Positions 15,021 through 46,169 of a stretch of DNA of 64,000 nucleotides are shown in pieces. The notes below the pieces were generated by a model, which was not told the DNA's origin, ran no database searches, and worked only from the letters and a program-made list of their open reading frames with translations. The position numbers and the translations under genes are program-made. This stretch comes from Enterocytospora artemiae (taxonomy: Eukaryota; Microsporidia), in NCBI GenBank assembly GCA_038659295.1, contig JASNGC010000001.1:496001-560000 (forward strand), written 5' to 3'. How positions within the stretch are numbered: position 1 is the first letter of the stretch; every line of letters starts with the position of its first letter.

Positions 15021-15032
15021 TGTTACGTCATC
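15021..15032. promoter_or_regulatory. TGTTACGTCATC element, copy 1
   Basis: TGTTACGTCATC with the core TTACGTCAT, a typical bZIP (CRE/ATF) binding sequence. It lies 228 bases upstream of the ATG at 15260. A second identical copy lies 56 bases further on. Function is inferred from sequence type only. Confidence 0.45.
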
Positions 15033-15076
15033 GGTGCTGAGATTTTCTGGCGTCAGAAAATACTTGTGGCCATTTA

Positions 15077-15088
15077 TGTTACGTCATC
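15077..15088. promoter_or_regulatory. TGTTACGTCATC element, copy 2
   Basis: Second identical copy of the 12-base element, same orientation, 172 bases upstream of the ATG at 15260. The offset from copy 1 is 56 bases, between five and six helical turns. Confidence 0.45.
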
Positions 15089-15259
15089 CATGATGAAGTG
15101 AAGGCACAGAAGTAATGTTCTCAGGTACTGGTATGGCGGGAATATTGTGAGGTGTTGTTGGTATGGCTAATTTGTTGTGTTTGTTTAATATTCCCTGAAT
15201 GGGAAAAAATATCATAATCCATATATTTGCGATATTTAATCCCAGGCCCGTGCGAGCCC

Positions 15260-16270
15260 ATGTTATTCTTAGTTCAATTAGTTAACTGCTTCAGATTCTA
15301 TCCCGAGGGTGCCTTGGACTCCAAGCCATTTGGTGCTCTGGACCATCATAAGAAGGATAGAAGATGCCGTGATGATGATCTCAACAAGTGCATCTTGGAA
15401 GGCAAGTGCGGTTTCTCAGAATCCTGTGACTTTTCGGAGTCGTCCTGTGACTTTTTGGAGTTCTCTTCCTTCTCGTCATCCAGCTCTGATTCCTCATCTT
15501 CGGAGTGTGAAGAGAAGGAGGAGTGCGAGAAGCCCGTATGCATCAATCCCTATGATCCCATTTTCCTGAGAATGGTCTCGCAGTTCAAGATAACTGCAGC
15601 CGAGTTGAACAAGATAAGGGTCGAGACCATCAACGACTTGAAGTCTCTCTTTATCAAGCTGGTTGACCTGATCAAGGTTGATGATACCAAGCCATTATAT
15701 GACACTCTGAGGGCTGATCTTGTTGCAGCTGGTATGAGCGACAAGCAGGCAGGGGACATCACCTCCAGGCTGTTTTCCATTGAAGAGAATATCTTGACGT
15801 CCAGCCTCAGGTCCTTCGATAGGACCACACGCGATCAGCTGAACAAGTTCTTCAGGAAGTTGGAGTGCGAGTCTAATGTGGTTTCTGCAGAGCTGTTGTT
15901 TAACAACATCAGCTATTCGGTCGGAGGTATCTTCGACAGCAGCATCTTCCCCCTGCTGTTCATCGGCAACAATATATCCCAGGCGCAGAAGAGCTTCTTG
16001 GACAGTCTTACGCTTGAGCCCGCAGTGCTGTCTATAATCGAGACAGCATTGAGCAACATTGTTTCCGGCATAATAACTGGGGGACTGAACACTGCCATTG
16101 CTGCAGTCAAGCAGGCCATCTCGAGTGACGTTTCTGCCGCCGAGACCGCATTCATTGCTGCCCAGAGTGCCGTGATCAACTCATTGGCCATGCTCCTGAA
16201 CTCCCAGATTGCCGAGATCCGTGCAATTTTGGGACTACCAATTCCACCAGTAACACCCCCAACCCCATGA
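15260..16270 (+). CDS. Secreted acidic protein A (paralogue of the next gene)
   Basis: A 336-residue protein with a short N-terminal signal peptide (MLFLVQLVNC...), starting at an ATG immediately preceded by GAGCCC. Residues 36-94 hold eight cysteines and a Ser/Asp/Glu-rich stretch (FSSFSSSSSDSSSSE). From about 115 to the end it is helical and cysteine-free, with a segment 'VDDTKPLYDTL' at 140-150. The tail is proline-rich (LPIPPVTPPTP). Residues about 120-200 align by eye with the following gene (DTKPLY/DTKPFY, then FSIEEN/YAIEKD). Codon use is strongly biased (AAG, GAG, ATC), as in highly expressed genes. It could be a spore wall, polar tube or secreted host-facing protein; no known family recognised. 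TGA overlaps AATAAA. Confidence 0.85.
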   Translation: MLFLVQLVNCFRFYPEGALDSKPFGALDHHKKDRRCRDDDLNKCILEGKCGFSESCDFSESSCDFLEFSSFSSSSSDSSSSECEEKEECEKPVCINPYDPIFLRMVSQFKITAAELNKIRVETINDLKSLFIKLVDLIKVDDTKPLYDTLRADLVAAGMSDKQAGDITSRLFSIEENILTSSLRSFDRTTRDQLNKFFRKLECESNVVSAELLFNNISYSVGGIFDSSIFPLLFIGNNISQAQKSFLDSLTLEPAVLSIIETALSNIVSGIITGGLNTAIAAVKQAISSDVSAAETAFIAAQSAVINSLAMLLNSQIAEIRAILGLPIPPVTPPTP

Positions 16271-16703
16271 ATAAACTAGTATAATTGATAATTAGCAATA
16301 AAATGATCTGTGGACGTCTTTCGTGTTTTTGAGTTTGTTTTGTTTGGTTTTCGTCCGGTCATTGGGACTTTAATGATGTATTCCCTTGCTGGTAGTGAGC
16401 TGACACCAATGAAAGCGTATTACATATGTTCTATTTTTGCCACTTGCATCGGAAATGCTCCCATGCCCTGAAATACACCTTGCTGTTAGAGTTTTGACTT
16501 AAACAACTTGTACATAACCATCTATAACCCACTGGATATCGGTATATTTCACAATCACTTCTCTTCAAATATTCTGGCATATGGAATAGTCGTTCGTACA
16601 ATAGAGACCCTGTTGCATATGTTTACCTACAATTTCCATTTATGGCAAAAAAATAAAAGACTCACCCAACCAAACTATTTAGAATAACAACAATTCCAAA
16701 GTA
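16271..16703. other. Intergenic region between the secreted paralogues, 433 bases
   Basis: An AT-rich spacer. I see no gene, tRNA or copy of the 12-base element found upstream of the first paralogue. Confidence 0.4.
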
Positions 16704-18524
16704 ATGTTGTTGTCAATAAAACTAATACACTGTGCGAACTTCTGTTATCAGGGAACAGTGGACAGAGCAGCTGGAAGCCAAGGAAGTACCGAGATTGGGG
16801 GTTTCTATACGAATTATCTTCCGGACTGGAAGTCTAGTTATTCTTCGGAATTCGGAAAATCGACAGATCCATATTTACGTCTATTTGATAATATCTCAAA
16901 CCAATGCAAAGCTGCTGTGAACAGATTACTCAATCTTGAGACTGTGACCAACTCTAATTTGGAATCAAGCTTATTAAAATTGATCCAGACAATTCAAGTT
17001 AGTGACACTAAGCCATTTTATAGTGATCTGACGCTGGAAATGATCACGTATGGCTTAAGGGAAAAAAAGGCAAAGAACATCTCGGCTGGACTGTATGCCA
17101 TCGAGAAGGATAATCTCACATTGGTCATCGATAATCTTGTCAAGAAATCTTCCGAGCAATTAAGAAAAATGTTTGAATCAACTTCTGTTAATCCAATCAA
17201 TAACCCAGGAGTGTCAATGCAATATCTGGTGGCAGACATATTTGAAAAGTATACTCTTTCTACATTTTTTATTGCTAATTCTATATTTCAAAAGCAAAAG
17301 GAGTACATTGATCTGCTTGATATTGACAGTAAGCTTAGTAAAAGTCTACTAAGTTCTATGTATACGAATGCTAATGAGGTCAAGAAAGACTTAATGAGTG
17401 AAATGCAACTTATGGAAAAATCAGTTACAGGGATTTGTATAGACGTAAAGGGGAAGTATATTAGTGAGCAGATCAAAATTATTGATTCTGTAAGTGAGAT
17501 ATGTAAGAATGAGATCAACTCTATTTTATCAAATATTGGAGTATCTATTGATCCAACTGACCCTGTCGATCCAACTGATCCTGTAGACCCACCTGTAGAT
17601 CCAACTGATCCTGTAGACCCACCTGTAGATCCAACTGATCCTGTAGACCCACCTGTAGATCCAACTGATCCTGTAGACCCACCTGTAGATCCAACTGATC
17701 CTGTAGACCCACCTGTAGATCCAACTGATCCTGTAGACCCACCTGTAGATCCAACTGATCCTGTAGACCCACCTGTAGATCCAACTGATCCTGTAGACCC
17801 ACCTGTAGATCCAACTGATCCTGTAGACCCACCTGTCGATCCAACTGATCCTGTAGACCCACCTGTAGATCCAACTGATCCTGTAGACCCACCTGTCGAT
17901 CCAACTGATCCTGTAGACCCACCTGTAGATCCAACTGATCCTGTAGACCCACCTGTAGATCCAACTGATCCTGTAGACCCACCTGTAGATCCAACTGATC
18001 CTGTAGACCCACCTGTAGATCCAACTGATCCTGTAGACCCACCTGTAGATCCAACTGATCCTGTAGACCCACCTGTAGATCCAACTGATCCTGTAGACCC
18101 ACCTGTAGATCCAACTGATCCTGTAGACCCACCTGTAGATCCAACTGATCCTGTAGACCCACCTGTAGAACCAACTGATCCTGTAGACCCACCTGTAGAT
18201 CCAACTGATCCTGTAGACCCACCTGTATATCCAACTGATCCTGTAGACCCACCTGTAGATCCACCTGATCCTGTAGACCCACCTTTAGATCCAACTGATC
18301 CTGTAGACCCACCTGTAGATCCAACTGATCCTGTAGACCCACCTGTAGATCCAACTGATCCTGTAGACCCACCTGTAGATCCAACTGATCCTGTAGACCC
18401 ACCTGTAGATCCAACTGATCCTGTAGACCCACCTGTAGATCCAACTGATCCTGTAGACCCACCTGTAGATCCAACTGATCCTGTAGACCCACCTGTAGAT
18501 CCAGTTAATCCTAAAATTTCATAA
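16704..18524 (+). CDS. Secreted protein B with 31 [10 protein letters not shown] repeats
   Basis: A 606-residue protein: signal peptide ([14 protein letters not shown]...), a helical region to about 282 and then a repetitive tail. Residues 70-150 match protein A ('[11 protein letters not shown]' at 99-109). The tail begins with DPTDPV at 283-288, continues as 31 exact-length units of [10 protein letters not shown] (289-598) and ends DPVNPKIS. Each unit has four Pro and three Asp, so the tail should be an extended, highly acidic rod with no membrane anchor. A repeat-bearing, proline-rich secreted protein beside a paralogue suggests a structural or adhesive surface role; polar tube proteins are also Pro-rich and clustered, but I see no sequence match to them. 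Confidence 0.9.
17550..18511 (+). repeat. Tandem repeat, 31 units of 30 bp
   Basis: An 18-base part unit (17550-17567) is followed by 31 units of 30 bases from 17568 to 18497 (unit begins GATCCAACTGATCCTGTAGA), then a divergent end. The array is nearly homogeneous: I count six base differences. Two are silent GTC for GTA (17835-17837 and 17895-17897). Four change the protein and fall close together: D to E (18168-18170), D to Y (18228-18230), T to P (18264-18266) and V to L (18285-18287). Length is a multiple of three throughout. Confidence 0.98.
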
Positions 18525-36862: not shown

Positions 36863-37561
36863 ATGAAAACATCTTATATAAAATTGAGTGGAGACCCAGT
36901 GAAGATTCACCCAGAACCAAGAGACGAGCCCATCCTCCTATTTGATATCGACTATTGTCTTTTTGACAGCGATGCTATGTATCACTACGAAGAGGAACAT
37001 TACAAATCACTATTTTTATCACAAAGTGGTAGAAGCGAGGATGATTGGAATGAAGGAGTGAAAACAAAAAATCGTCGGGAGATGTTCCTTGAGTATCTTG
37101 GAATGCCTCCCGCAGAATTTGCCAAGGCAATGGATATTAAGTCTATGGTGTCTACATTTCTCTCAGCTAATCAAAGCTTGAACAATTTGCTTGCCGCCAT
37201 TCCCTACAAAAAGGTTTGTTTTACCAACGGCGATTTCGATCGAGCAAGCACAATACTCAGGCATCTGGAGCTGGAGAAATATTTCTCACACGTTTTCCAC
37301 GCTGATGTTGATGCACCCTTGACTTGCATCAAACCACATATGTTCTCATACCAGTTTGCAGAAGAGTCATTAAATGCTAATCCAGAAAAGTTCTACTTCT
37401 TCGATGATCGAAGGATCAATGTTGAGAATGCTATTCTAAGAAGATGGAATGGTTATCTAGTCAAAAACAATCTAGAAGAAAAGATCCGACTGGCGTTGGA
37501 AGACATTAATGTACTTAGTTCAACCGAAGTATCTACAGTATGCCAAGTATCAATGAATTAG
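36863..37561 (+). CDS. HAD-family nucleotidase, Sdt1/Phm8-like, copy 1
   Basis: A 232-residue HAD hydrolase of the pyrimidine 5'-nucleotidase (Sdt1/Phm8) type. Motif I LLFDIDYCLFDSD supplies the nucleophile and acid aspartates, motif II VCFTNG has the Thr, motif III CIKPHMF the Lys, and motif IV FFDDRRINVEN the metal aspartates. It would dephosphorylate nucleoside monophosphates. Two paralogues lie at 44470 and 45390 on the other strand. The ATG at 36863 follows CTACCC directly. Confidence 0.9.
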   Translation: MKTSYIKLSGDPVKIHPEPRDEPILLFDIDYCLFDSDAMYHYEEEHYKSLFLSQSGRSEDDWNEGVKTKNRREMFLEYLGMPPAEFAKAMDIKSMVSTFLSANQSLNNLLAAIPYKKVCFTNGDFDRASTILRHLELEKYFSHVFHADVDAPLTCIKPHMFSYQFAEESLNANPEKFYFFDDRRINVENAILRRWNGYLVKNNLEEKIRLALEDINVLSSTEVSTVCQVSMN

Positions 37562-42616: not shown

Positions 42617-43537
42617 ATGATCTCTCTTATCTTAACTTTTTTGGAACTGGGAAGTATCTATGCTGATGGAGGATACACGGCAAGCCAGTACGATGTCGTC
42701 GCCAAGGACATCCATGAACAACTTGCAAAGGTTCATGGATATTTGGAGGATCATGATACTCAGGTCAATGTTAAGAGATTTGGGGATATTTCAATCATGA
42801 CCCTGAACGGCCATGCCGATGGAGATCTGATAGAGAAAGACCAAGAAAAGGAGATTTTGAAGCTACTGGACACCGAGCATCCTGCAATTTTGGCACTGCA
42901 AGCAGTCACCATGGACATGCTAAACAACATCGAGGCTTCGCTGAAGTCACATTATAGAATTGTAAATTCAAAGTTCATAAATGTCGACATCAAGTCCAAG
43001 AAGCAGGAACGCAAGCCCTTTATCTTCGATACTACCGTGCTGGACTTCATTCAGGAGGCCAGCTTTACACCTGATCAAAAGCCATTGGCAACATATGCAA
43101 CATGGGGCATCTTCCGCCATAAAAGGACCAATAATCTCTTTAGTGTGGTAAACATTGATTTGTTTTCGGACGATGAGGAGACGATTGACGTCCAGATGTT
43201 TACTATTCTCAAGCACATTGAAACAACACCCTACAAGGAACTTCCTGTTATTTTTGCCGGGACCATTAACAAAACCTCGAAGGACCTGGCGAAGCTGATT
43301 GAAACTACTGTAAAGAATACACTTTTGGAGGATAAGAACAACAAGAACCTGTCCAAAACCACTTTCCATGATCACGGAAGACTGGATGATAATGTCGAAA
43401 GAGACTTCATAGCTGTCAAATCAAAGTCGGACACCGTTACGGTCAACTACAGTAGAATCCTATCTGAGTATTCCATTAAGAGTTTTGAACACTATCCAGT
43501 CCTGTCTATCCTAACATTTAAACAACCCCAAAAATAA
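42617..43537 (+). CDS. Secreted protein with a degenerate endonuclease/phosphatase (EEP) fold
   Basis: A 306-residue protein with a signal peptide (MISLILTFLELGSIYADG). The fold resembles DNase I-like endonuclease/exonuclease/phosphatase enzymes: 'ISIMTLNGH', 'PAILALQAV', a core strand 'FSVVNIDLF', 'ELPVIFAGTIN' and a final 'SFEHYPVLSILTF'. In active enzymes these positions carry LQE, GDFN and SDHxP; here Glu is missing (LQAV), GDFN is replaced by AGTIN and SDH by FEH. So it is probably non-catalytic or altered. Secretion suggests a host-facing role. The frame is open to a TTG at 42512, but this ATG gives a proper signal peptide. Confidence 0.72.
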   Translation: MISLILTFLELGSIYADGGYTASQYDVVAKDIHEQLAKVHGYLEDHDTQVNVKRFGDISIMTLNGHADGDLIEKDQEKEILKLLDTEHPAILALQAVTMDMLNNIEASLKSHYRIVNSKFINVDIKSKKQERKPFIFDTTVLDFIQEASFTPDQKPLATYATWGIFRHKRTNNLFSVVNIDLFSDDEETIDVQMFTILKHIETTPYKELPVIFAGTINKTSKDLAKLIETTVKNTLLEDKNNKNLSKTTFHDHGRLDDNVERDFIAVKSKSDTVTVNYSRILSEYSIKSFEHYPVLSILTFKQPQK

Positions 43538-44469: not shown

Positions 44470-45213
44470 TTAAAATCGCTGAAGCTCATTATCACAAACA
44501 TTAATCTCCTCATTTTTAATTGATGCCATTACATCATCCTGTGCCGCATCAAGCATGTGGGACTGCAGATGTGGCAGTAGGGCTTCTTCGATTCCCATAG
44601 TGACTAGATATGCATTCCAACCCCAGCTTTTTGCACGCTCGATGTTTGCACATGAATCATCAAAAAAATGCACCTTTGAGGGATCTTCAATTCCCAACAC
44701 CTCAGTAATAAATCGATAAGCCTTCTTGTATGGCTTCGAAATAAATTCGGTGTCAACTACATCTGCACAAATCAGATATTCAAAACAATCTAAGATATCC
44801 AGCCGACTCAAGATAGAAAGGACCCTATTTTTGGTTCCGTTCGAAAAACAGACCTTTCTCTTTGCAAGCTTTGTCAGCATTGTCTTTAGTCTCGGATTTG
44901 GCTTTACAAATTTTGTGATTTCATCAAACTGCAGATCAACTGTCTTATCAAAGTGGCTTGGATGGCAATTTGCAAATTTATAGAATATCTCTCCCCATGA
45001 ATAATACCTCTTCTGGATGTCTTGCCACTCCTTCTTGCTAAGTCCGCTCAATTTGTTAAATATCTCCCCGACTTTCCTCTTCTCAAATTCATTCATTTCA
45101 GGGCTGTTGTACAAACAGTAGTCTACATCGAAAACAAACAATTCCTCATTTCTTACCGGAACCTCTGCTCTACAGCTTTTGTTTCTCTCTGACATTTCAA
45201 TGATTTGGATCAT
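44470..45213 (-). CDS. HAD-family nucleotidase, Sdt1/Phm8-like, copy 2
   Basis: A 247-residue HAD hydrolase. Motif I VFDVDYCLYNSPEM, motif II VCFSNGTKNR, motif III FISKPYKKAY, motif IV VHFFDDSCANIER, so all four catalytic elements are intact. It is closely related to copy 3, which is next to it in tandem, and to copy 1 at 36.9 kb. It would act on pyrimidine or other nucleoside monophosphates. The ATG at 45213 follows ATACCCCTTA. Its tail (residues 215-247) carries extra acidic sequence. Confidence 0.9.
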   Translation of the reverse strand: MIQIIEMSERNKSCRAEVPVRNEELFVFDVDYCLYNSPEMNEFEKRKVGEIFNKLSGLSKKEWQDIQKRYYSWGEIFYKFANCHPSHFDKTVDLQFDEITKFVKPNPRLKTMLTKLAKRKVCFSNGTKNRVLSILSRLDILDCFEYLICADVVDTEFISKPYKKAYRFITEVLGIEDPSKVHFFDDSCANIERAKSWGWNAYLVTMGIEEALLPHLQSHMLDAAQDDVMASIKNEEINVCDNELQRF

Positions 45214-45389: not shown

Positions 45390-46169
45390 TTATTTATTTA
45401 TACTATTGCATCCATTTATATTCTTTAGCACATCTGTCAGCACCTCAACTATGTTGTCCTTTACTTCATAGCCATTCCACCCTCGAAGTCTCGCTGCATT
45501 AATATTCTTCAGGGAATCATCCATAAAGTGAATTTTTTTTCTATCTTCTATTCCCATATAGGCCTCAACAAAGTCAAAGGCATTAGACTTGGGCTTCACT
45601 ATGAAGTCTGTTTCCACAGTATCGGGACAAAAGACAACCTCAAAAAATGTATCCAGTTTTAAGTGTGTTAATATACGCTCTACCCTGGGCTTTGTGGCAT
45701 TTGTAAAACACACCATTCGATATGTTTGATTTCCTGATGGGTCTGGTTGCAACTCCCCCAGTCCATTAGCCTCGACCAACGACTGCTCGGATGTGTGGAA
45801 CCTATTAGACTGATCAGTAGATCCTTGAATAGATTTCAACAAATTTATTAATTTTTCATCAGGCTGACAGTATTTCTCAATATCAACAGTGTCCACCGTC
45901 TGGCTGAACTGTGATGGATGAAGATCACAGACACGGTAAAACATTTCAAGCCATGGGGAATACAGGCTGTTGGCCAGGGTCCAATGACTGTCGTCCTTGC
46001 CTGTTATATTCAAAAAATGATTCTTGCATTTATCGTCCTCCTCAACTTCCAGCTCTTTACTGCTAAACAAACAAAAATCCATGTCAAAAACAAGAAGTGG
46101 AAAATCTCCTATTGGATTGGGTGACCTCAGATTAGAAGTCCGAATTGACATTTCCACAAAATTTATCAT
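45390..46169 (-). CDS. HAD-family nucleotidase, Sdt1/Phm8-like, copy 3
   Basis: A 259-residue HAD hydrolase, tandem to copy 2 with 176 bases between them. Motif I LVFDMDFCLFSSKEL, motif II VCFTNATKPR, motif III FIVKPKSNAF, motif IV IHFMDDSLKNINA; the catalytic aspartates, Thr and Lys are present. A 30-residue insertion (about 122-150, beginning STDQSNRF) between the cap and motif II is specific to this copy. The ATG at 46169 follows CCCCCCCTTTT. AATAAA overlaps the stop region (AATAAATAA). Confidence 0.9.
   Translation of the reverse strand: MINFVEMSIRTSNLRSPNPIGDFPLLVFDMDFCLFSSKELEVEEDDKCKNHFLNITGKDDSHWTLANSLYSPWLEMFYRVCDLHPSQFSQTVDTVDIEKYCQPDEKLINLLKSIQGSTDQSNRFHTSEQSLVEANGLGELQPDPSGNQTYRMVCFTNATKPRVERILTHLKLDTFFEVVFCPDTVETDFIVKPKSNAFDFVEAYMGIEDRKKIHFMDDSLKNINAARLRGWNGYEVKDNIVEVLTDVLKNINGCNSINK

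Follow-up and report, generated by a model that had tools for sequence, protein, structure and literature searches.

Results

Two adjacent paralogous genes

In the window, by which we mean the whole 64 kb stretch of DNA that was analysed, two adjacent plus-strand frames that had been picked out by a first-pass annotation are both present. Gene A (15260..16270, +) encodes 336 amino acids, comprising a short N-terminal hydrophobic segment, a Cys/Ser-rich region, a predicted five-helix core and, as that annotation had described, the short Pro-rich tail PPVTPPTP. Its paralogue, gene B (16704..18524, +), follows after an intergenic gap of 433 bases and encodes 606 amino acids. The start codon is in each case the first ATG after an upstream in-frame stop (15215 for A and 16680 for B), and the relatedness of the first 20 residues of the two proteins, whose score was reached in none of 5000 shuffles, supports both starts.

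The two proteins differ in composition. An N-terminal Cys/Ser cluster had been assigned to A alone, and a Cys/Ser/acidic segment with 8 Cys is indeed found at residues 36-94 of A (15365..15541, +) with no counterpart in B; B has four Cys after residue 11, and the A-B alignment contains no common Cys outside the signal region. The description of both proteins as acidic holds for A, with a pI of 4.7, but less so for the core of B, since residues 1-280 without the tail have a pI of 5.7 and the acidity of B comes mostly from its tail. Third-position GC is 0.63 for A (15260-16270), the largest value among the 40 rows for which it was calculated, and 0.37 for the B core (16704-17552), a strong difference that counts against the reading of A and B as a structural pair developed below.

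Paralogy is well beyond chance. BLASTP aligned A and B with an E-value of 9e-17 and 31% identity over 157 amino acids, the core-to-core local score was 221 (1000 shuffles gave a mean of 39.5, a standard deviation of 6.8 and a maximum of 73), and among 46 other proteins of the window that were compared with the A core B scored 237, while the remaining 45 scored 56 or less. The alignment of the first 20 residues extends the paralogy over the presumed signal peptides. Both motifs proposed earlier as common to the pair, DTKP(L/F)Y and (F/Y)(S/A)IE(E/K)(N/D), are real (DTKPLY and FSIEEN in A, DTKPFY and YAIEKD in B). When the genome (3,015,070 bases, about 3.0 Mb, in 5 contigs) was scanned for more copies, A at E <= 0.001 matched nothing but itself and B, and the B core at E <= 1 matched itself, A and, weakly (E 0.005), a short frame that does not begin with a hydrophobic segment; no third clear copy was thus found at these thresholds. 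Together with the repeat array described below, the BLASTP result, the shuffles and the two genomic copies support a tandem duplication in which the tail has grown in one copy.

Upstream of A, two 20-base copies that are 85% alike and both carry TGTTACGTCATC (15021..15096, +) contain both of the TTACGTCAT sites present in the 64 kb window, and a further one occurs in the 9.5 kb that precede it. A CCC or CCCC run, which is typical of microsporidian genes, occurs at or a few bases from the start codon of many genes of the window. Three HAD-type hydrolase genes, two of them adjacent, were also seen within 10 kb (36863-37561, 44470-45213 and 45390-46169), and a 306-amino-acid protein (42617-43537), which has a hydrophobic N-terminus and matched no Pfam model, may be a second case of a secreted orphan.

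A predicted helical core

AlphaFold2, run on a two-sequence alignment, predicted with good confidence an all-helical core for residues 99-324 of A (15554..16231, +), made up of helices at 99-135, 144-156, 161-204, 210-248 and 254-324, the last of about 71 residues (mean pLDDT 87.8, pTM 0.76). The model for residues 56-278 of B (16869..17537, +) is weaker (mean pLDDT 71.8, pTM 0.58), but its predicted order of five helices is identical; the two runs were separate, yet both used the same two sequences. Among the 50 structural neighbours of the A core listed by Foldseek, four were trypanosome proteins (three haptoglobin-haemoglobin receptor entries and one metacyclic surface protein) with insignificant E-values of 0.2-0.5, and for a structural role of the pair these neighbours of a predicted model may be taken as a weak hint only.

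The Asp-Pro repeat array of B

The massive Asp/Pro tail claimed for B is real, although it is longer than the 310 residues first given. Residues 281-606 (17544..18521, +), that is 326 amino acids, are built on a 10-residue unit, with 31 full 30-base units from base 17562 and a diverged last unit in the sequence as assembled. Within the tail, Asp accounts for 94 residues and Pro for 129; there are 94 Asp-Pro steps, and a single residue is basic. The consensus is matched by 24 of the 31 units; units 1, 10 and 12 have one common synonymous change, and units 21, 23, 24 and 25 each differ by a single amino acid (the four changes being D>E, D>Y, T>P and V>L). This little divergence between units suggests that the array was recently homogenised. 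A genome-wide search with an exact degenerate 20-base pattern for the unit gave 30 matches, all of them inside the B array, and no reverse or control matches.

N-terminal segments and putative secretion

Signal peptides had been proposed for both proteins. In favour of this, both N-termini are hydrophobic, and in a crude hydropathy ranking of 49 proteins A came 5th and B 12th, close to two proteins of the same genome discussed below, a PTP1-like protein (6th) and PTP2 (14th); the presumed signal peptides are, however, short. A and B would thereby enter the secretory pathway, as far as can be judged from their sequences. If these segments were not signal peptides, A and B could instead be intracellular, for example as a coiled-coil scaffold, and the shortness of the segments, their lack of a basic n-region and the predicted all-helical core would all fit. 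We nevertheless regard an intracellular pair as distinctly unlikely, as the N-termini of the paralogues are related, their hydropathy ranks are comparable to those of the PTP1-like protein and PTP2, and segments rich in Cys or in Pro are a typical feature of extracellular proteins.

Search for relatives

The statement that the pair belongs to no recognised family has stood up at the sensitivities used. Searches of the A and B cores against Pfam, NCBIfam and PDB sequences gave nothing near the cut-off, and no fold relative of the cores was found among solved structures. In a collection of 5.8 billion proteins, E <= 1 was reached by none of the 3409 candidates for A and by none of the 7992 for the A+B alignment, in a search that requires common 5-residue words and can thus miss fast-evolving secreted proteins of distant species. 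An enolase control in the same collection found 12 named microsporidian genera among the 120 matches listed, in addition to a row labelled Antlo1, which we take to be Antonospora locustae; the absence of A/B relatives therefore does not come from a lack of microsporidia in the collection. The nearest enolase among these matches was just 54% identical, so that the collection seems to hold no close relative of this species. At this search sensitivity, A and B appear to be an orphan pair.

Such an orphan pair might instead be exposed to the host, as secreted effectors or surface antigens that act in the infected cell, with the tail of B serving as a spacer that is immune-dominant or gives solubility. 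Secreted effectors, too, can have helical cores and Pro-rich tails, which speaks against a structural role, and no relatives of A or B were found in the collection searches. One study names large paralogous families, mostly clade-specific and provided with signal peptides or transmembrane domains, as a striking microsporidian feature (PMC10393165). Only two copies were found in this genome, however, not a large family, and we consider a host-exposed pair somewhat unlikely.

Placement of the genome

The contig starts with TTAG-type telomere repeats, and for eL24 the closest match among solved structures was 6zu5, presumably the ribosome of Paranosema locustae. In an enolase tree of 71 rows (70 of the 120 proteins listed and the window's own), a placement that rests on one gene, the window enolase had a long branch (0.84) and fell into a well-supported group of 29 rows (100/95) with Enteropsectra, Pancytospora and Glugoides; support for its position inside that group was weak (90/66). 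Enteropsectra and Pancytospora (PMC10393165) and Glugoides (PMC13174016) are assigned to Enterocytozoonida, and a 2025 paper reports one chromosome-level assembly for Enterocytozoonida (PMC12558613).

Known polar tube and spore wall proteins

The PTP2 model (PF17022) had its sole match in the genome at C3:607873 (137 bits), and the MICSWaP model (PF17018) matched at C1:758817 (173 bits). At E <= 10, neither model came up among the Pfam hits of A or of B. Beside PTP2 on C3 lies a 258-amino-acid Pro- and Cys-rich protein (L015:5709-6485) which, having no Pfam match, is called PTP1-like by its place and composition only. An identity of A and B with PTP1 and PTP2 was ruled out, since the PTP2, PTP1-like and MICSWaP genes lie elsewhere in the genome, the first two on C3 and A and B on C1, with no model match to the latter; BLASTP against the genome's PTP2 likewise gave no significant similarity (E 0.36 for A and 0.11 for the B core). 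A CCWGG box is found at most 60 bases from the start of A, of the PTP1-like gene and of PTP2; B has none, so that no common regulation of A and B is shown, a further point against the structural pair favoured below.

The PTP1-like/PTP2 pair has open frames at L015:4371-6485 (C3), and by its enolase this genome falls near Enterocytozoonida. A 2026 study nevertheless reports PTP1, as well as PTP4, to be lost in all nine Enterocytozoonida species that it examined (PMC13174016).

This loss bears on the most serious family rival, in which A and B would be this lineage's strongly diverged version of PTP4 and PTP5. The genes for these two proteins usually form a cluster (PMC5413088), and PMC10229552 gives about 20% similarity of PTP5 to PTP4 in E. 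cuniculi and lengths of 254 and 240 amino acids for the A. algerae proteins, much like the cores of A and B, which are adjacent, weakly similar and putatively secreted themselves. The four cysteines kept among PTP4 homologues (PMC5413088), on the other hand, would be at odds with the lack of common Cys between A and B outside the signal region, although B by itself has four after residue 11. That PTP4 is reported as lost in the group close to the window's enolase is a weak further argument, because PTP1 is given as lost there too (PMC13174016), yet this genome has a PTP1-like gene. On balance, we hold a PTP4/PTP5 identity to be quite improbable.

Discussion

Given these data, we tentatively favour, at somewhat less than an even chance, a structural role in the microsporidian spore stage: A and B would be a pair of secreted proteins with a lineage-restricted distribution, situated at the spore wall or the polar tube surface and derived from an old tandem duplication. 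The paralogy with its related N-terminus, the N-terminal hydropathy ranks, the common helix order and the homogenised array were all counted for this structural pair. Short signal peptides would take A and B into the secretory pathway. The cores could be stiff helical rods, binding to themselves, to each other or to other spore proteins, and the Cys-rich N-terminus of A might allow disulfide cross-linking. Polyproline II has a rise of 0.31 nm per residue. The tail of B may accordingly form an extended polyproline-II-like polyanion of about 100 nm if fully extended, which would keep the core away from its anchor, or span and hydrate the wall. At three residues per turn, the Asp residues of successive DPx triplets would be lined up along one face, and the register would slip by one residue in every ten. 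As the 30-base unit stays in frame at any copy number, the length of the tail could vary freely through slippage or unequal exchange.

We further propose, as an unlikely extension of this structural reading, that the pair represents a novel type of spore-surface rod in microsporidia, confined to its lineage, in which a helical core protein is accompanied by a paralogue with a slippage-tunable, Asp-striped polyproline rod of the above length. If so, spacer length, and thus wall thickness, hydration or adhesion reach, could differ between strains that had simply gained or lost 30-base units. Microsporidian attachment and infection are decided by rapidly evolving proteins of the spore and polar tube, and many of the secreted ones are without known relatives. 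With its well-predicted core and a polyanionic tail that may vary in length, such a pair would offer spore proteomics a defined candidate and might serve as a strain marker.

Among known systems, PTP1 and PTP2, as adjacent secreted structural genes with Pro-rich segments, resemble A and B, which are adjacent, Pro-rich in part and putatively secreted and structural, but the pair in this genome lies on another contig, and its PTP2 has no significant similarity to A or B. MICSWaP is comparable in the proposed site of action, whereas its model finds its own locus and neither A nor B. PTP4 and PTP5 are similar in their adjacent genes, in the weak similarity of their proteins and in a size near that of the A and B cores, along with the putative secretion of the latter; by the published description, A and B differ from them in the lack of common Cys outside the signal region, the Asp-Pro tail of B and the Cys/Ser cluster of A. 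Finally, although the above Foldseek E-values and a TM of about 0.2 are no evidence of relatedness, elongated trypanosome surface proteins such as the haptoglobin-haemoglobin receptor share with the predicted A core the form of an elongated helical bundle, a likeness in the way of working only.
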